From Desulfovirgula sp. (lineage in GTDB: Bacteria; Bacillota; Desulfotomaculia; Desulfotomaculales; Desulfovirgulaceae), in NCBI GenBank assembly GCA_020725525.1, contig DYEX01000077.1, positions 1 through 64,000 of the forward strand: a stretch of DNA of 64,000 nucleotides, in the 5' to 3' direction. The position numbers and the translations under genes are program-made. Positions 9,023 through 28,692 of this stretch are shown here, one piece after another. Position 1 is the first letter of the stretch. Each line of letters starts with the position of its first letter. The notes under the pieces were generated by a model. That model was not told where the DNA came from. It saw only the letters and a list, made by a program, of their open reading frames with translations, and made no database searches.

Positions 9023-10132
9023 TTGGACAGATACTACATGCAAATGGCTTTAGACCTGGCCCGGCAGGCCCTGGGGCGAACCAGTCCCAATCCCATGGTG
9101 GGGGCGGTCCTGGTGAAGGATGGTCGGGTGATCGGGCAGGGCTACCATACCCGGCCCGGTACCCCTCATGCAGAGATTCACGCTTTAAGGGAAGCCGGTG
9201 AGCGGGCGGCAGGAGCTACCCTTTATGTTACCCTGGAACCATGTTGTCACCAGGGAAGAACGGGGCCCTGTACTGAGGCCATCCTGGCTGCCGGCGTCAA
9301 GCGGGTGGTGGCTGCCATGACCGATCCCAACCCCCTGGTTTCCGGGCGGGGGTTGGAGCGGTTGCGCCGGGCCGGGGTAGAAGTGACCGTGGGCGTAATG
9401 GAAGAAGATGCGCAGCGGTTAAATGAGGTGTTTATAAAATACATTACTACCCGTCGTCCCTTTGTGGTTTTAAAGACGGCCATGAGCCTGGACGGCAAAA
9501 TAGCGACCCGCAGCGGGGAATCGCAGTGGATTACCGGTCCGCAGGCCCGGCTGGCAGTGCACCGCCTCCGGGACCGTTATGATGCCGTCCTGGTCGGTAT
9601 AAATACAGTCCTGAAGGACAACCCTTCCCTGACTACCCGTATTCCGCAAGAGGATGGCAGGGATCCGGTGCGGGTCATTGTGGATAGCCTTGCCCGTACC
9701 CCGCCGGAGGCCCGGGTGATTACGCAGCAGTCTTCAGCCCCAACCATTATTGCGGTAACCGAAAAAGCACCCGCACAGAATCTGCGCCGGTTGGAGAGGG
9801 CCGGGGCGCAGATCGTAGTGGTACCCGGAAACGGCCCCCGGGTGGATCTGGCGGGTTTGATGGCCGAGTTGGGTCGCCGGGAGATTACCAGCGTGCTTGT
9901 TGAAGGAGGCGGGGAAATTCACGCCTCTTTCCTGGAAGCCCGCCTGGTAGACAAAGTGATCTGGTTTATTGCCCCGCGGATTATTGGCGGGCGGCAGGCG
10001 CCCGGTCCTGTAGGAGGTGAAGGTCCGGCCCGGCTGGTGGACGCAATTCGGCTGAAGGACGTCTCCCTGAGCCGTTACGGGGAGGACTTGTGTGTGGAGG
10101 GGTACGTAGTAGATCCCGGGGGTGAAGGTTAA
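9023..10132 (+). CDS. ribD: Bifunctional riboflavin deaminase/reductase RibD
   Basis: This protein of about 369 residues catalyses the second and third steps of riboflavin synthesis. The N-terminal deaminase domain has the zinc site HAEIHAL and PCCHQGRTGPC. The C-terminal domain is a pyrimidine reductase (KTAMSLDGKIATRSGESQWITG and VEGGGEIHASFLEARLVDK). The start is taken as TTG 9023, just after AGGTGAGG and beyond the attenuator terminator; ATG 9038 is the alternative. An in-frame ATG upstream (8954) would fall inside the terminator and is rejected. Its stop overlaps the ribE start by one base, indicating translational coupling. Confidence 0.95.
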   Translation: MDRYYMQMALDLARQALGRTSPNPMVGAVLVKDGRVIGQGYHTRPGTPHAEIHALREAGERAAGATLYVTLEPCCHQGRTGPCTEAILAAGVKRVVAAMTDPNPLVSGRGLERLRRAGVEVTVGVMEEDAQRLNEVFIKYITTRRPFVVLKTAMSLDGKIATRSGESQWITGPQARLAVHRLRDRYDAVLVGINTVLKDNPSLTTRIPQEDGRDPVRVIVDSLARTPPEARVITQQSSAPTIIAVTEKAPAQNLRRLERAGAQIVVVPGNGPRVDLAGLMAELGRREITSVLVEGGGEIHASFLEARLVDKVIWFIAPRIIGGRQAPGPVGGEGPARLVDAIRLKDVSLSRYGEDLCVEGYVVDPGGEG

Positions 10133-19203: not shown

Positions 19204-19686
19204 GTGGAGCTGTTTCATATTTTAAATGAAATGGAAGAAATGATTGAAAGCAGTCCCCGGATACCCATGACCAGGCGGGTGGTAGTGGACGAGGACAAAC
19301 TGCTCGATTATCTGGATCGCATTCGCACCACTCTGCCGGAAGAATTGCGCCAGGCGCGCTGGGTTCTCCAGGAACGGGAAAAGGTGCTGGCCGACACCCG
19401 CAAGGAAGCAGGACGTCTTTTGGAAGATGCCCAGAAACAACTGGAAAAACGGGCGGAAGAAAGTGAAGTGGTTAAAAAAGCCCAGGCCATGGCCGACGAA
19501 ATTGTGCACAAGGCCGAACAGGTGGCCAGGGAAATTAAACAGGGAGCCCGGGAGTATGCCGATGAAATACTGCAGGGTTTGGAAGAAGAACTGGACAAGA
19601 TCATGGCCCAAATCCGCAACGGACGAGCGGAGTTAAGAGGGCTTAAAGTGAGTGAATCCGTTAATTCAAGGACGGCCCAGGGTTAA
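19204..19686 (+). CDS. Coiled-coil protein (DivIVA/ATP synthase-subunit-like)
   Basis: The 160-residue protein starts at GTG 19204, two bases after the coaD stop and behind AGGAGGGG. Apart from a short N-terminal helix (FHILNEMEEMI) it is nearly all charged coiled coil: RQARWVLQEREKVLADTRKEAGRLLEDAQK through EQVAREIKQGAREYADEILQGLEEELDKIM. Similar proteins are often named ATPase or V-type ATP synthase subunit H in Clostridia, on the basis of the coiled coil only. Its conserved position after coaD suggests a role in envelope or division, but no function can be assigned. Its end overlaps the convergent neighbour by 4 bp. Confidence 0.75.
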   Translation: MELFHILNEMEEMIESSPRIPMTRRVVVDEDKLLDYLDRIRTTLPEELRQARWVLQEREKVLADTRKEAGRLLEDAQKQLEKRAEESEVVKKAQAMADEIVHKAEQVAREIKQGAREYADEILQGLEEELDKIMAQIRNGRAELRGLKVSESVNSRTAQG

Positions 19687-20735
19687 TCCGCCAGGGCCTG
19701 GAGTATGGCCGCAAGATCACAGTATTTTTCTATATTTTCCCGGGCCAGGGCGATGCTTTTCTGGTCTCGGGGACGGATACGCCGGCTGATCTCGGCCAGC
19801 TTTTCGATAGTGGTAAAGGTATCGTAATGTACCAGGATAACCGGTACGTTTTTTTCTGCCGCCCGCGCAATCACTTTCACGTCCGGATACAAACCACCGG
19901 TAAGAATTAATACCGAAGTGTTGGTTTCCAGGGCCGCCAGAGCCAGGTCGGCGCGGTCGCCGCCGGTAACCACTGCCTTATTGGGGGCCCGCCGCAAGTA
20001 GCCCAGGGCACTTTCGATAGTCATGGCACCGATAACCATATCTTCTACCAGCCGGTTCAGGTTTTCTTCTCCCGCCAGAAGTTCTCCACCCAGCGTCTCA
20101 TAGAATTCAGCCACGGTAGGCGAAGCTATTTCCGGCCGTTGAGGAATAATACCCAGGGTGCGGTATCCCCGTTCCTCAAGTAGAGACTTATAAATACCCT
20201 CGGTTTTAGCCAGCAGTGGGCGGGGAACGTTGTTAAAGACATTGCCCAGCACCCTGATCCCCTGGTTTGCCAGATAGCTGTTAATGAAAATGGCCTGATC
20301 CAGGCTGAAGTCATTTTCAATACGGATCATAAATAAAACCAGAGCATCAAATTTTTGGGCCAGAGTAACGGCATCCAGGCCCCAGCACCCCATGATATGG
20401 GGAAAAGCTGCTCCCCCGATAAGCACCACGTCGGCCCCGGCACTGACCTGCCGGTAACAGGATACAATACGTTCCAGTGCCTCGCATTGCCGGTACCCCG
20501 AGAGATAAGACGGGCCGGCGATGAAGGGTACGATTACTTCCAGGGGATGCTTTAAGTTCAATACTTCCTGCATGAGCCGGGCATCCTCATCATGCTGCTC
20601 CTTTACACCGGTAGGATGACCCACTGGCTTAAAATAGGCCACGCGGTAGCCGTGCTGGTGCAGTTGCAGGGCCAGCCCCACGGCCAGGGCTGTTTTTCCA
20701 CTGCCAGCCGTACCCATGATATAAATGTTTTTCAC
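19683..20735 (-). CDS. BioD-like P-loop protein with DRTGG domain (phosphotransacetylase N-terminal-like)
   Basis: The 350-residue protein starts at GTG 20735, six bases after GAGGTG; the GTG at 20744 lies inside that ribosome site. The N-terminal half is a BioD-like NTPase with Walker A MGTAGSGKTALAVGL. The C-terminal half is a DRTGG domain (TPT-like VTGGDRADLALAALETNTSVLILTGG). This two-domain arrangement is the N-terminal part of long bacterial phosphotransacetylases without the catalytic PTA domain. Its start is about 10 bp from the stop of the ADP-forming acyl-CoA synthetase, so the two are probably one operon, suggesting a regulatory role in acetyl-CoA/acyl-CoA conversion (inference). 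Confidence 0.82.
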   Translation of the reverse strand: MKNIYIMGTAGSGKTALAVGLALQLHQHGYRVAYFKPVGHPTGVKEQHDEDARLMQEVLNLKHPLEVIVPFIAGPSYLSGYRQCEALERIVSCYRQVSAGADVVLIGGAAFPHIMGCWGLDAVTLAQKFDALVLFMIRIENDFSLDQAIFINSYLANQGIRVLGNVFNNVPRPLLAKTEGIYKSLLEERGYRTLGIIPQRPEIASPTVAEFYETLGGELLAGEENLNRLVEDMVIGAMTIESALGYLRRAPNKAVVTGGDRADLALAALETNTSVLILTGGLYPDVKVIARAAEKNVPVILVHYDTFTTIEKLAEISRRIRPRDQKSIALARENIEKYCDLAAILQALAD

Positions 20736-20745
20736 CGTGCACACC

Positions 20746-22848
20746 TCACGATATAGTGATTTTTATATCCAGGGCAAATGCACCGTCCGAGTAGGCAAAA
20801 ACCGGGTTGATATCCATTTCTGCAATTTCAGGAAAATCAACCACCAGTCTGGCAGCCCGGGCAATCATTTCGATGATTGCCCTTATATCTTTGGGTTTTT
20901 CCCCGCGATAGCCACGCAACAACGTATAGGCCCTGGTTTCGGTAAGCATGCGCTGAATTTCTTCCCTGGTCAATCCATGAGCCAGGCGAAAGGAAACGTC
21001 TTTCAAAAGGTTAACGTAAATTCCACCCAGACCAAAAGCAATTAGCGGTCCGAACTGCACATCCCGGGTCATGCCAATAATTAATTCCGTTCCCTTAGGC
21101 ATCATTTTTTGGATTTCAATTCCGTGAATAACCACTTTCGGCAGGTACCGCTGCACATTTTCGGTAATTTCAATAAAGCTTTTCTTGACTTCCCGGGTAT
21201 TTTCGACCCCTATTTTTACTCCACCTATATCAGTTTTGTGCAGAATTTGGGGGGAAGCTACCTTCATGACCACCGGAAAGCCCATTTCCTGTGCTCTGGC
21301 CACTGCTTCTTCGGGACTGGTGGCCAGAACAATGGGAGCTATGGAAATGCCGTAATACCGGGCCACTTCACTGGCTTCACTGCCGAGCAAAGTTAACCTG
21401 CCTTCCTGGCGTATTTTTTGCAAGACTTCCTTGACCCGTTCCGGTTGAATACAATCCAGTTCAATCTCTTCTTCTTTTGCGGGCCGTTCCCTGGTCCGGG
21501 CGTAACGAACCATACCGCTCAAGGCCCTAACTGCCGGTTCCGGAAAGGTGAAACAGGGAATGCCCTCTTCAGCCAGGAGACTGGCTCCCGCAGCCAGAGT
21601 TTTTCCACCCATATAGGCTGCGAATACCGGTTTGGCAGGGTGCATACGGTGGGTTTCGATGATGGCCCGGGCGGTTTTTTCCGGTTCAGTCACTGCCGTG
21701 GGACAGACCAGCACCACCACACTATCCACACTCTGATCATGCAGCACCTTTTCCAGGGCAAAACGATAGCGGTCCTCGCCGGCATCACCAAGGACGTCAA
21801 CCGGGTTATAAATTGCTGCTTCCCCCGGCAGGTTGGCCCTTAATTCCTGGCTGGTTTCCTTGCTGAAGCGGGCCATGGTCAGTTCACTCAGTTCGATATT
21901 ATCTGTGGTGACAATTCCGGGTCCTCCGGCGTTGGTTACCACCGCCACCCGATTTCCTTTTGGCAGGGGCTGGTGGGCAAAGGCAACGGCCAGGTCGAAA
22001 AGCTCGGCCATGCTCCGGGCGCGGATGACGCCGCACTGGCGGAAAGCCGTCTCATAGGCCAGGTCGCTCCCGGCCAGGGCTCCCGTGTGGGAGGATGCCG
22101 CCTAGGCCCCGGCCTGGCTGGCACCGCTTTTAAGGATAATCACCGGTTTTCTGCGGCTGGCCACTTTTGCTACCTCTAAAAATTGCTGGCCCCGGGCTAC
22201 ATCCTCAATGTAACAGAGGATAACCTTTGTATGGGGATCACTGGCTGCATCGGCTATAAAATCCGCTTCATTTAAGCCCGCCTTATTGCCCAGGCTGACT
22301 ATCCGGGAAAAGCCCAGTCCCGTAGCCTGGCTCCAGTCCAGAATGGCCACCAGCATGGCCCCACTCTGGGAAATAAAAGCAATGTTCCCCCGTCTGGGAA
22401 AAACGGCTGAAAAGGAAGCGTTGATGGGTACGTGGGTATCCATCATGCCCACGCAGTTGGGGCCTAAAAGGCCCATATCGTAACTGCGACAAATGCGGGT
22501 GAGTTCCTTTTCCAGAATCAGTCCTTCCTTACCTACTTCTTTAAATCCTGCCGATATGACCACCAGGTTTTTGGCCCCAACAAGGCCACATTCCTGGGCG
22601 ATTGAGACGACCAGGCTGGCCGGAACGGCTACCACCACCAGGTCTATACCTTCCCCGATGACACGTAAATTGGGATAACAACGCAGCCCCTCAATTTCCT
22701 CTTCTTTGGGATTGACTGGATAAATCCTGCCCGTGTAACCACAGGCAATCATATTTTTCACGATGACGTTGCCAATTTTACCGGGTTTCCTGGAAGCACC
22801 GACAATAGCTACCGTTTGGGGGTGAAAAAAAGCATGCAGGTCCGCCAA
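20746..22848 (-). pseudogene. ADP-forming acyl-CoA (acetyl-CoA) synthetase interrupted by an in-frame TAG
   Basis: The gene encodes 700 residues in a single frame, broken only by TAG at codon 249 (plus-strand CTA at 22102-22104). The first part has the CoA-binding Rossmann domain (IVGASRKPGKIGNVIV) and succinyl-CoA ligase-like domain (GLLGPNCVGMM, SQSGAMLVAI). The sequence around the stop reads GASQAGA-stop-AASSHTGALAG, with the phosphohistidine expected at His254. The rest has the second CoA-ligase domain and the ATP-grasp domain (GFPVVMKVASPQILHKTDIGGV). The family makes ATP from acyl-CoA, or the reverse. Everything after the stop is intact. It could be a recent nonsense mutation, a sequencing error, or read-through/pyrrolysine. 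If translation stops, only a 248-residue fragment is made, although an internal ATG at 22011 could start the second part. Confidence 0.85.
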
Positions 22849-22990: not shown

Positions 22991-23800
22991 TCAAGTTGTC
23001 CTTGCGGGCTTAAAATAATCCTCCTTGCAAAGCTGGAGCAGCAATTTGTACACTTCCCCGGGTGAAGACAAACGGACGGTTGCGGCGCTGGGACGGGAGT
23101 CTGGGCTGACCAGGATGCCCCAGCCCCTTTTTAGGGCCATAAAAGCATCCTCATCGGTCCGGTCGTCGCCGATATAAACCGGCAGTGCCCGGGAATATTT
23201 CCGGCAAAGGTATGCCACTGCCTTTCCTTTATGTATTCCCCGGGGGCGTATTTCCAGCACCTTTTTACCTGGTAAGAGCTCCAGTTGTTTTTGGCGCACG
23301 ATGGAGGAAGTTCTTTTGATAAAACTGTCCAGTACCTTCTGGGCCAGGCCGGGATCGGCCAGGCGATAATGCAGGGCAAGGGAGGTACCTTTGTTTTCCA
23401 CCAAAAAGCCGCTGCATTTAGCCATACATTCTCTGGCTATTATTTCCAGGTTAACCATGTCTTCCTTGAGCTGTTGATTGTGCATCGAACGGTATACTTT
23501 GCCACCCGGTTCCTTGATTTCCGCACCGTGGGAACCAACCAGGTACAGGCCAGCCAAAGGGAGCAATTCCTGCAGTTCGTCCAGTTTACGACCGCTGATT
23601 ACTGCTACCACTCGACCGGGGAAAAAAGCTAACTTTTGCAGGGTGGCCAGGAGTTCTGGAGCAGGCCGGGCCAGAGCCGGAGTGGCCGCAATGGGAACCA
23701 GGGTACCGTCATAATCCAGCATGAGCAACAGTTCGGGTGCTGCGGTCAGGTATGCGGCCAGTTTTTCTGGGGTTGATGCAGGCGGCTCCCCTTGTGCCAA
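22991..23800 (-). CDS. otsB: Trehalose-6-phosphate phosphatase
   Basis: The 269-residue HAD-family protein starts at TTG 23800, eight bases after AGGAGGT; upstream in-frame sequence lies inside otsA. HAD motif I is LMLDYDGTLVPI, motif II is VAVISGRKLDEL, and the late motif is YIGDDRTDEDAFMAL. LYLVGSHGAEIKEPGG is typical of OtsB. It removes phosphate from trehalose-6-phosphate to yield trehalose, a compatible solute. It lies 18 bp downstream of otsA as the last gene of a four-gene minus-strand cluster. Confidence 0.92.
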   Translation of the reverse strand: MAQGEPPASTPEKLAAYLTAAPELLLMLDYDGTLVPIAATPALARPAPELLATLQKLAFFPGRVVAVISGRKLDELQELLPLAGLYLVGSHGAEIKEPGGKVYRSMHNQQLKEDMVNLEIIARECMAKCSGFLVENKGTSLALHYRLADPGLAQKVLDSFIKRTSSIVRQKQLELLPGKKVLEIRPRGIHKGKAVAYLCRKYSRALPVYIGDDRTDEDAFMALKRGWGILVSPDSRPSAATVRLSSPGEVYKLLLQLCKEDYFKPARTT

Positions 23801-23817
23801 GGAACCTGACCTCCTGC

Positions 23818-25278
23818 TTACAGATTGGCTGCGTTGATGGCTGCCGGGCTGATGCCGGAGCCCAGGCTTTTGACCAGTTTCAAGTTGGTCTGCCACCACC
23901 AGCGCACATCCCGGCTCTTAACCGTCCGGCGTAAGGATTCCAGGCGACTTTTTTGTTCCTGGAAAGACATTTCCAGGGCCATTTTGATTTTTGCCGCCAG
24001 GTGGGCCGGTTCAAAGGGATTGGCCAGCAGTGCTCCGTGGAGTTCCTGGGCCGCGCCGGCAAAGGGGCTCAAAATAAGCACTCCCTTACCATCAATACGT
24101 GAAGCCACAAACTCCTTGGCCACCAGATTAAGGCCATCCCTTAAGGCTGTCACCAAAAGCACATCGGCAGCCAGATAATGGGCTACCAGCTCGGCCTGGT
24201 CCAGGGACTGATAACGGTAACGTACCGGCACTGCGCCATACATCTGGTCGTATCGTCCGTTGACTTCCCCTACTATTCGTTCTACTTCCTGCTTTAAAAT
24301 ACCATATTCTCCGATGCCGTTGCGACTGGGTACGGCAATTTGTAAAAGGGTAACCCTGCCGCGATATTCAGGATATTTTTCTAAGAAGCATGCCATAGCC
24401 CGTATCCGTTCGGGAATTCCCTTGGTATAGTCCATGCGGTCGATGCCCAGGAGCACCTTTTCTGCACCCAGGGATTTACGGATTTCCGCCGCCCTGGCCC
24501 GTACGGCGGGATCGGTGGCCAGCTGTTCAAACCGGTGGTAGTTAATACCTACCGGCAAGGCCTGGACCAAAATTTTGCGGTTGCGGAAGCGAATCAAACC
24601 TTGTTCCGGATAAATTCTGGCCGGGTAGTAGCAAGACATGGTATCAAGGAAATTTTCCACATACCGGCTGGTGTGGAAAGCAATTAAGTCGCTGCCCAAA
24701 AGACCGTAGATGATTTGGCGTCCCCAGGGGAGAATCTGGAACAGGTCTGCTGGAGGGAAGGGAATATGCCAGAAGAAAGCAATAGCAGCCCCGGGTGACT
24801 GCTGCCGTAATAATTGTGGTACCAGGGCAAGGTGAAAATCATGTATCCAGTAGATTTCCTTTTTTGCTTCCAGGGTGATGCGGGCAAACTTCTGGTTGAC
24901 CCGGCGGTAAGCCTCCCAGTAAGCCTTTTCAAAGGAACAACGCTCGGGTAGTTGATGACACAGGGGCCACAGAATGGCATTACAAAAGCCGTGGTAGTAG
25001 TGGTCGTGCTCCTCTGGAGTAAGGAAGACTTCCTGGATCTGGTAGCGCGGTTCTCCTGGGGGTATGCCCAGCTTAACTCCCTGTTCTTTGCTATGATCAA
25101 GGCGTCCGCACCAGGAGATCCAGGTTCCTCCGTGGGCGGTGAGTACCGGTTCCACCGCCGCAACCAGTCCTCCTACCGTTCGCCTGGGAATTACCTGATC
25201 GTGACCCTCCTGGAAGGTATAGGCTCCCCGGTTGGAAACCACAACCACCTGTGCGGTGTTTTTGCTGTAGCTGTACAC
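23818..25278 (-). CDS. otsA: Trehalose-6-phosphate synthase (GT20)
   Basis: The 486-residue protein starts at GTG 25278 behind GGGAGGTGG; an in-frame ATG at 25305 overlaps the upstream gene and has no site. The GT20 family blocks are VVVSNRGAYTFQEG, RRTVGGLVAAVEPVL, YYHGFCNAILWPLCH, IYWIHDFHLALVPQLLR, FFWHIPFP and GIDRMDYTKGIPERIRA. The nucleotide-sugar pocket is ALRDGLNLVAKEFVA. It transfers glucose from UDP- or GDP-glucose to glucose-6-phosphate. An OtsA-like glucosylglycerol-phosphate synthase cannot be fully excluded, but the adjacent otsB favours trehalose. Confidence 0.9.
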   Translation of the reverse strand: MYSYSKNTAQVVVVSNRGAYTFQEGHDQVIPRRTVGGLVAAVEPVLTAHGGTWISWCGRLDHSKEQGVKLGIPPGEPRYQIQEVFLTPEEHDHYYHGFCNAILWPLCHQLPERCSFEKAYWEAYRRVNQKFARITLEAKKEIYWIHDFHLALVPQLLRQQSPGAAIAFFWHIPFPPADLFQILPWGRQIIYGLLGSDLIAFHTSRYVENFLDTMSCYYPARIYPEQGLIRFRNRKILVQALPVGINYHRFEQLATDPAVRARAAEIRKSLGAEKVLLGIDRMDYTKGIPERIRAMACFLEKYPEYRGRVTLLQIAVPSRNGIGEYGILKQEVERIVGEVNGRYDQMYGAVPVRYRYQSLDQAELVAHYLAADVLLVTALRDGLNLVAKEFVASRIDGKGVLILSPFAGAAQELHGALLANPFEPAHLAAKIKMALEMSFQEQKSRLESLRRTVKSRDVRWWWQTNLKLVKSLGSGISPAAINAANL

Positions 25279-25294
25279 AACTTCCACCTCCCTC

Positions 25295-27475
25295 TCAATT
25301 TTCAATGATTACACGGGTATTGCCTGTAGCCCTTATTACCCCACAATAGGCTTTTCCCTGTTTGCGAGTAAATTCCAGATCCACCGTTCCGGAACCGGCA
25401 GCCAGGTTACAAATCTGGATTTCCTGGACCCAGGAAGGCAGCAGGGGAGCCCACACGTGTACCTCGTTACCCCAGCAGGAAATGCCCAGTATGGTGCGGA
25501 TGAGCAGGGGCATGGTCCCTACGGCCCAGGCCTGGGGATCACAGGCGGTGGGGTAATGTACCGGCCCACCGTCCCTGCGTCTGGTAAAACCACAAAAAAC
25601 TTCCGGCAACCGGTGATAGGGGAAGGACATAGCAGCCTCAAAAAGGCCGGTGACTACCTTTTCCAGCAGATCAAACTGGCGGTAGCAACGTAACCCGTAG
25701 GCAATAATGGCATTATCATGGGGCCATACCGAACCGTTATGATAACTCATGGGATTGTAGGGTCCCATGGATTTACTCATCGTGCGGATGCCCCACCCCG
25801 AGTGCATATCACTGGTCAACAGCCGCCGGGCCACTGTTACGGCCAGCTCATCAGGAAGAATACCCGTAAACAGACAGTGACCGGGGTTAGAGACAATGGT
25901 TTTAACCGGCTTTTTTTCACCATCCAGGGCAAAGGCCAGGTACTGTTCCTCTTCCATCCAGAAAGCCTCTAAAAACTTGCGTTGCAGTGCGGCAGCTTCC
26001 TGTTCCAATTCTCCGGCCCACTCATCCTTGCCGAGCACCCGGCCTATTTCAGCGGCCCGCTTTAGAGCAAGATAATAATAGGCTTGTACCTCCACCAGGG
26101 CAATGGGGCCGGTGGGCAGGCTGCCCCGGGGATCAATAACCCCGTCCCAGGAGTCCTTCCAGCCCTGATTGGTTAGTCCCCGCGGGGAACGGACGGCATA
26201 TTCAATAAAACCATCGCCGTCCATATCCCCGTATTTCCGGCACCATTCCACAGCCGCAAAAAGATTGGGAGCCAGATCGGTGAGTAACTGTTTATCTCCG
26301 GTCCAGCGGTAGGTTTCAGAAAGCAGTATAATAAACCAGGGAGTGGCGTCCACACTTCCGTAATAAGGAGTATGGGGAATTTCCCCGCAGGCAGCCAGCT
26401 CTCCCCGGCGGAATTCATGTAATATTTTCCCCGGCTGTTCATCCCGCCAGGGATTATCCTCTTTCCCCTGCAGGCGGGCTAAAAAGTACAGGCTTTGCCG
26501 GGCAATGTCGGGGTTCACAATTAATGCCTGCCAGGAAGTAATCAGGGCATCCCGGCCGAAGGGTGCCGCATACCAGGGTATGCCGGCCTGCACAATGGTT
26601 CCCAGGTCGGGATAATGGGTACACAAAGCATATAGATCCGTCACATTACGCCGGAGCATATTGCTCAAAAAGACATTATCGCTCTTAAATTGGGTACATT
26701 GCTCTTTCCACTTTTCGTAAAGAGAATAAGTTTTACGTACCGCCCGGCTGAATCCGGAGGCAATGGTTGCTTTTCCCCGGAAGAGAACAGGGTTTGGTTT
26801 GTCACCAATTAAAGGCTTCACCTGCATGTAAAGGTATACTTTCCGTCCGGGAGGCAAAGTGAGGGAAAACCGGGCGGTAGCCAGGTTGCTTTCCCGTTCT
26901 ATCTCTACACTGTCAGGGAAAGGGGAAAAGGAAACTCTGGTATAACGGCAGAGATTGTCCCTTCCCCGGTAGCCAAAGAGAATTCCCTCCCGGGTAGCCA
27001 CCGGTGTAAAAGTTTCCCCCTTTTGGTCGCGGATAAAACCCCGGACCTCAAAAATATCCAGAAAGTCAGCCCCCAGCCTTATTTGCAGGGTAATCATTAC
27101 AGGCATGGGGTTGAAATTGATCAAACGCAAGCGTTGAAACAGGGCGTTGTCCAGGACCCGCAGGGCGCGGATGTGTATGGTACTGGCCGGAATAACATGA
27201 TCGTCCCGGTTCAGAGCCGGGTTGGTGAGTTCGAATTGGGCAAAGTGGCTGTCCTTAATGGAAGAGGAGAGAAATAGAAGGTTTCCTTCCGTTAGCCTCA
27301 TTTCTAAACAGCTTAAAAAACGGGTGTCGCGATAATAGAGCCCGAAACCCCCGTTATGCTGGTAAGATACCTCTCCCTCGGGTCCGCAAATGAAAAAAAG
27401 TTCTCCTTCCTTAAGCACTTCCTGGGAAAGGCACGACCGGGTGGCTAACCCCGGTATGTGGGTAATATCGAGCAC
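25295..27475 (-). CDS. Amylo-alpha-1,6-glucosidase / glycogen-debranching-type glycosidase
   Basis: The 726-residue protein starts at GTG 27475 after AGGAGGT. The N-terminal GDE_N-like domain (FFICGPEGEVSYQHNGGFGLYYRDTRFLSCLEMRL) is followed by an (alpha/alpha)6 barrel with AGIPWYAAPFGRDALITSWQAL, NQGWKDSWDGV and GSVWPHDNAIIAYGL, which carries the acidic residues of the family. Such proteins hydrolyse or remodel alpha-glucans. It lies between a GT4 glycosyltransferase and otsA on one strand (gaps of about 11 and 16 bp), suggesting release of glucose for trehalose or processing of an unusual glucoside (inference). Confidence 0.87.
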   Translation of the reverse strand: MLDITHIPGLATRSCLSQEVLKEGELFFICGPEGEVSYQHNGGFGLYYRDTRFLSCLEMRLTEGNLLFLSSSIKDSHFAQFELTNPALNRDDHVIPASTIHIRALRVLDNALFQRLRLINFNPMPVMITLQIRLGADFLDIFEVRGFIRDQKGETFTPVATREGILFGYRGRDNLCRYTRVSFSPFPDSVEIERESNLATARFSLTLPPGRKVYLYMQVKPLIGDKPNPVLFRGKATIASGFSRAVRKTYSLYEKWKEQCTQFKSDNVFLSNMLRRNVTDLYALCTHYPDLGTIVQAGIPWYAAPFGRDALITSWQALIVNPDIARQSLYFLARLQGKEDNPWRDEQPGKILHEFRRGELAACGEIPHTPYYGSVDATPWFIILLSETYRWTGDKQLLTDLAPNLFAAVEWCRKYGDMDGDGFIEYAVRSPRGLTNQGWKDSWDGVIDPRGSLPTGPIALVEVQAYYYLALKRAAEIGRVLGKDEWAGELEQEAAALQRKFLEAFWMEEEQYLAFALDGEKKPVKTIVSNPGHCLFTGILPDELAVTVARRLLTSDMHSGWGIRTMSKSMGPYNPMSYHNGSVWPHDNAIIAYGLRCYRQFDLLEKVVTGLFEAAMSFPYHRLPEVFCGFTRRRDGGPVHYPTACDPQAWAVGTMPLLIRTILGISCWGNEVHVWAPLLPSWVQEIQICNLAAGSGTVDLEFTRKQGKAYCGVIRATGNTRVIIEN

Positions 27476-27486
27476 CGCATTACCTC

Positions 27487-28692
27487 CTAAGCAATTTGTT
27501 TTTGCTTGCGCAGGTAGCAGGCGAGTGCTTTACCGTAAACCTGGAGTGTACGGGCGGTCATTACTTCCCGGGTAAAGTTTCTTTCCACCATCTGCCGCCC
27601 TGTTTCACCCATTTGACGGGCCTTTTGTGGGTCGGCCAGCAAATGGCAGCACTTCCGGGCTAATGCCTCGTGATCGTGCATGGGCACCACGAAGCCGTTG
27701 ATGCCGTCCTGGATCACCTCGGGCATACCGCCGGCCCGGCTGACCACCATGGGACGCCCCGTGGCCAGGGATTCCAGCATGGCCAGGCCGAAAGGTTCTT
27801 CAAAGCAGGAGGGGTAGATGCAAATTTCGGCAGCCTGGTACATTAAGGGGATCTCCTCCCAGGAGAAGAAGCGAATGAAAACATCCCGTTCCAGTCCCAG
27901 TTCCATGATCAGGCGTTTGATTCTGGATACGTGCCCGGGCTGGTGGCTGCCCCAGTCGACGGTTTTTTCCGTACCGGCCAGCACTAGCATTGTATCCGGA
28001 TACTGTTCCTTAATTAACTTGAACGCCTTTATGCTGATGTGGCAACCCTTATCAAAGCTCATCCGGGCCGGGTGGAAGATCACCCGCCTGCCTTTCAGTT
28101 CTGGATAGGATTGCCATGCAGTTTGGAGATCACCTTCGGCAGGAGGTTTAAATCTTTCCAGATCAATGCCATGGTGAATTACGGTGATCCTTTCCTCCGG
28201 GAACCCGGCTTTAACCAGTTCTTTCTTGATGTAATGGCTGACCGCAATTACCGCATCCCACTCGGCAGCACGCCGGCACATTTCCTCCCACAGGGAATCG
28301 GACCACACGTTATGGGCCGTTAACACCAGGGGGATTCCACAGCGCTTTTTGGCTTCCACTAAAGCGTCAAGATGGACCGGACTGAAGTAATGCATGTTGT
28401 GGGCGTGGATAATGTCAGGGTGAACCTGCTGGACAAAATCGCCAATCAAGCGGCGAATTTCGTCCCCGCTGTCCATGATTTTTTGTGCATCCAGGCTGTT
28501 CAGATCCATCAGCTTACGGCGACGCACCCGTAAACCCTGCCAGGTGTATTCCATTTCCCCTTCCTGGGTGGAGCCGGTGAGAAGGCTTACCTGGCAACCG
28601 TAACGGGTGAGCTCTGGACACAACATGGCCAGATGGCTTTCCACACCACCGATAATCGGGGGGAAAGCCCAGTGTAACATGGCAACTTTCAC
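27487..28692 (-). CDS. Glycosyltransferase family 4 protein
   Basis: The 401-residue GT-B protein has an N-terminal loop HWAFPPIIGGVESHL. HAHNMHYFSPVHL and VIAVSHYIKKELVKAGFPEERITVIHHGIDLERFKP are typical of retaining GT4 enzymes. The C-terminal donor-site motif is IYPSCFEEPFGLAMLESLATGRPMVVSRAGGMPEVI with the E-x7-E pattern. It transfers a sugar from a nucleotide donor to an unknown acceptor. It is the promoter-proximal gene of the cluster and ends 11 bp before the debranching enzyme. It may make glycogen-like or glycoside substrate for that enzyme. Confidence 0.88.
   Translation of the reverse strand: MKVAMLHWAFPPIIGGVESHLAMLCPELTRYGCQVSLLTGSTQEGEMEYTWQGLRVRRRKLMDLNSLDAQKIMDSGDEIRRLIGDFVQQVHPDIIHAHNMHYFSPVHLDALVEAKKRCGIPLVLTAHNVWSDSLWEEMCRRAAEWDAVIAVSHYIKKELVKAGFPEERITVIHHGIDLERFKPPAEGDLQTAWQSYPELKGRRVIFHPARMSFDKGCHISIKAFKLIKEQYPDTMLVLAGTEKTVDWGSHQPGHVSRIKRLIMELGLERDVFIRFFSWEEIPLMYQAAEICIYPSCFEEPFGLAMLESLATGRPMVVSRAGGMPEVIQDGINGFVVPMHDHEALARKCCHLLADPQKARQMGETGRQMVERNFTREVMTARTLQVYGKALACYLRKQKQIA

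Follow-up and report, generated by a model that had tools for sequence, protein, structure and literature searches.

The window, that is, the whole stretch of DNA analysed here, is 64,000 nucleotides of one contig of a Desulfofundulus (sulfate reducer) genome, a draft in 191 contigs rated 99.99% complete. On its minus strand, at 20746..22848, lies an interrupted gene for a fused alpha-beta ADP-forming acyl-CoA (acetate--CoA) synthetase, an enzyme common in energy metabolism, with a TTG start and a TGA end. Translation of this frame (22848-20746) gives 701 codons, with the TGA at codon 701 and a single internal stop, TAG at codon 249 (22102..22104), in the context GASQAGA-TAG-AASSHTGALAG. The histidine of this context is codon 254 (22087..22089), five codons past the TAG.

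Domains and identity of the interrupted gene

Domain searches of the two parts of the gene matched one family. The 248-codon fragment 5' of the TAG (22105..22848, minus strand) matches CoA_binding_2 and the first 96 of the 138 positions of Succ_CoA_lig; it holds the CoA-binding domain and a portion of the flavodoxin-like one. The 451 codons 3' of the TAG (20746..22101, minus strand) resume Succ_CoA_lig at positions 98-138, with the phospho-His loop, and continue into Ligase_CoA_2 and ATP-grasp_5. Hence, the full domain set of the ADP-forming acetate--CoA ligase (ACD) family (CoA-binding, Succ_CoA_lig, Ligase_CoA and ATP-grasp_5) stands in one frame only if the TAG is read through; as written, the frame at 20746-22848 is not uninterrupted, because of the TAG at codon 249.

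When the TAG is read through, the frame scores above the NCBIfam cut-off for TIGR02717 (acetate--CoA ligase alpha domain) and aligns end to end with PDB 8wzu_A (E 1.3e-160). The closest solved members of the ACD family are this protein, the Nmar_0206 4-hydroxybutyrate--CoA ligase, and 4xyl, an alpha/beta acyl-CoA synthetase (NDP forming). In the 8wzu alignment, the histidine of codon 254 falls on H256 of Nmar_0206, the phosphate-carrying histidine of the swinging loop (PMC11494057). The Desulfofundulus copy thus shares the domain set and the swinging-loop histidine of the family and differs from it by a stop five codons ahead of that histidine. These results bear out the first-pass annotation, which had named the gene an ADP-forming acyl-CoA synthetase and had placed the stop five codons before the catalytic histidine.

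The downstream neighbour of the synthetase gene is an intact AAA_26 + DRTGG gene (19683..20744, minus strand), found in the same order in congeners. Its protein is similar to the N-terminal part of phosphate acetyltransferase and may regulate the ADP-forming synthetase or act as its partner. Upstream, a cluster at 22991-28692 (minus strand) encodes a trehalose-phosphatase, a GT20 protein (trehalose-phosphate synthase family), a glycogen-debranching-type protein and a group 1 glycosyltransferase, and is probably a set of compatible-solute or storage-sugar genes.

Codon 249 in relatives and constraint on its flanks

The named relatives in the collection are D. thermosubterraneus (88%), D. australicus (82%) and D. 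thermobenzoicus (78%). We found an uninterrupted orthologue of the synthetase gene in all five genomes of the same genus, and gene order around it is kept in the four congeners compared over a longer stretch. The read-through frame is 82-89% identical to the intact congeners from end to end, and so the earlier description of the frame as complete apart from codon 249 stands.

The four nearest congeners (G002, G004, D. thermosubterraneus and G001) and D. thermobenzoicus all have CAG at codon 249, and D. australicus has CGG at the equivalent position. Among 99 homologous sequences, a count that draws on two collections and includes some sequences twice, the residue at the site is Gln in 42, Arg in 30, Lys in 21, Met in 3, Leu in 2 and Ala in 1. 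In a list of about 150 homologues drawn from 113 genomes of the class, no further stop stands at this position, and the TAG is unique to the source genome. Since the nearest relatives carry CAG and differ from the source genome at this codon by one base, the simplest account is a single C-to-T transition that turned CAG into TAG. Hence, a single substitution explains the stop, as had been proposed; the substitution named at the time, AAG to TAG, is at odds with the congeners, and the Lys or Arg said to be usual at this position gives way to Gln among near relatives.

C>T is the commonest change in the gene between the source genome and the congeners (53 of 188), and the gene of the nearest relative has 17 CAG codons. 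The C of the CAG in relatives is the inner C of CCAGG, which is the Dcm site in enterics, and so a 5-methylcytosine hot spot was considered as the cause. We looked for a C5-cytosine methyltransferase (PF00145) and found none; hence, the hot spot was set aside, and ordinary deamination or replication error suffices.

The site is also broken in one other genome. In G020 (MAG DeMMO5_3), a frameshift of one base falls in a G/C run of the orthologue, at residues 246-248 (L151 about 2085-2105; G020:C93 about 9085-9105), a few bases from the TAG site; it is probably an indel or an error in that run. This was the sole break at the site among the listed homologues, so recurrent disruption was rejected and the proximity treated as coincidence.

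Purifying constraint on the post-stop codons is normal. Relative to four congeners, dN/dS is 0.07-0.09 after the stop, 0.10-0.11 before it and 0.03-0.17 in neighbouring genes. On the branch to the four nearest relatives, which includes their stem in an unpolarised comparison, the post-stop codons show 99 synonymous and 25 nonsynonymous changes (omega 0.08). The unconstrained share of this branch is at most 2-5%, equal to a dS of about 0.011-0.023; a larger share would predict more nonsynonymous changes. Hence, the stop arose within the last 0.02 or so synonymous substitutions per site, unless it is an error; more generally, it is very young, not real or not effective. The first-pass annotation had taken the lack of downstream decay to mean recent mutation, error or recoding; the first two are upheld, and recoding by pyrrolysine falls away with the missing pyl genes described below.

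Reading of the TAG codon

Pyrrolysine insertion at the TAG had been put forward as conceivable. The gene resembles pyrrolysine-coding genes (e.g. mttB and mtmB) in having an in-frame TAG in an otherwise open frame, and PylS does occur elsewhere in the order, in one genome (G031, E 1.9e-129). In contrast, the same search, which was also positive in Methanosarcina acetivorans, gave no PylS over the cut-off in the source genome or in any of five congeners. In the source genome, PylB gave matches below the cut-off only, as it did in 12 control genomes, and PylC-N and MttB had no match over the cut-off. Also unlike pyrrolysine-coding genes, the TAG occurs in one species only and the nearest relatives carry Gln, not Lys, at the site. 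RNA structure after the stop was not stronger than in shuffled sequences (z -0.3). ARAGORN detected no tRNA at the G031 PylS locus, so no pylT query was obtainable from there. Pyrrolysine insertion in the source strain is refuted as far as sequence can refute it, and we give it next to no chance.

TAG is otherwise an ordinary terminator in this genome. Among 136 genes with orthologue-matched ends in 164 kb of the contig, 66 end in TAA, 41 in TGA and 29 in TAG, the codon-249 stop included; hence, TAG ends about 21% of the orthologue-supported genes, 28 of them besides the interrupted one. Since release factor 1 (RF1) is also present, genome-wide reassignment of TAG was rejected.

These termination data also weigh against pyrrolysine and against an amber suppressor tRNA, e.g. 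a mutated Gln or Tyr tRNA, that would read through the TAG and keep the full-length enzyme. The normal constraint on the post-stop codons favours such a tRNA. None of the 32 tRNAs found has a CUA anticodon, in a list without Met, Ile, Trp and Tyr tRNAs, and as some essential tRNAs are missing from this list, a suppressor may have escaped notice. When CUA tRNAs were sought by pattern, 7 matches came up, relative to 5 in the control, and the single match within a known tRNA was tRNA-Asp(GTC). We therefore regard a suppressor as very improbable, and the more specific version, in which a tRNA missing from the draft inserts Gln or another residue so that the enzyme is still made and partial UAG read-through is tolerated, as slightly more improbable again. 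The 32 tRNAs (G000, loci L120-L149, L161 and L162) lack those for four amino acids despite the 99.99% completeness of the genome; tRNA or rRNA clusters were probably lost at contig breaks or missed at first look.

A natural division of the gene into two subunits, with the downstream part restarting at the ATG at 22011, has a precedent, in that some relatives, and one paralogue in the source genome, encode alpha and beta separately. This paralogue (G000:C39:11054-13095, minus strand) occurs alongside fused forms in the same genome. However, genuine breaks, in this paralogue and between chains A and B of 4xyl, sit between domains near residue 452-467, whereas the TAG cuts inside the flavodoxin-like domain, and 22011, the next in-frame ATG after the TAG, is 3' of the catalytic histidine codon. 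Hence, the stop is in the wrong place for a natural alpha/beta split, which we rejected as hardly credible.

Origin and consequences of the stop

We consider it likely that, of the several ADP-forming acyl-CoA synthetase genes in this genome, one was broken by a recent nonsense mutation, CAG (Gln249) to TAG. One C-to-T transition would have produced the TAG, at which RF1 would end translation to leave a 248-residue fragment. This fragment would lack the phosphohistidine loop, the CoA-ligase domain and the ATP-grasp domain, and the gene is thus expected to yield no active enzyme; since the fragment ends before the phospho-His, it should allow no catalysis by the known mechanism (as judged from PMC11494057). 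The rest of the gene would be undecayed because the mutation is young. Intact paralogues are present at three places in the source genome, on C101 (66% identical), on C137 (39%) and on C39 (the separate alpha and beta genes), and these may cover the lost activity and possibly buffer its loss.

The chief competing reading is that the real gene is intact with CAG at the site, and that the TAG stems from a sequencing or consensus error or from a minor strain variant in a mixed assembly. Such an error gives the same pattern as a recent mutation: the codon is one base off the nearest relatives, there is no decay at all, and the genome is a draft in 191 contigs. Moreover, of 141 orthologous frames compared with G002 over the 164 kb, the synthetase gene alone is credibly interrupted, so no other break indicates active gene loss in the region. 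Further stops flagged against the congeners proved to be antisense frames or 5' extensions past the true start (e.g. that of a MutS-like frame in G002). The lone interruption argues against general gene loss and also for a clean assembly with a low error rate; in addition, the change, a transition, belongs to the commonest class on the branch and is not a homopolymer indel. We therefore hold an error to be possible but unlikely. The strong post-stop constraint would also fit efficient read-through, which counts against a recent nonsense mutation as well.

With a recent nonsense mutation as the preferred reading, the gene shares with young nonsense pseudogenes of bacteria a single nonsense change, orthologues in sister species that are intact with a sense codon, the lack of further decay and the presence of paralogues, with no notable difference. 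The interrupted synthetase gene is an ordinary case and has little importance beyond annotation, in which it should be marked as interrupted and not be put forward as a possible pyrrolysine protein. Should the TAG prove real, this strain would be a small natural experiment on how far ADP-forming acyl-CoA synthetases are redundant in thermophilic sulfate reducers.
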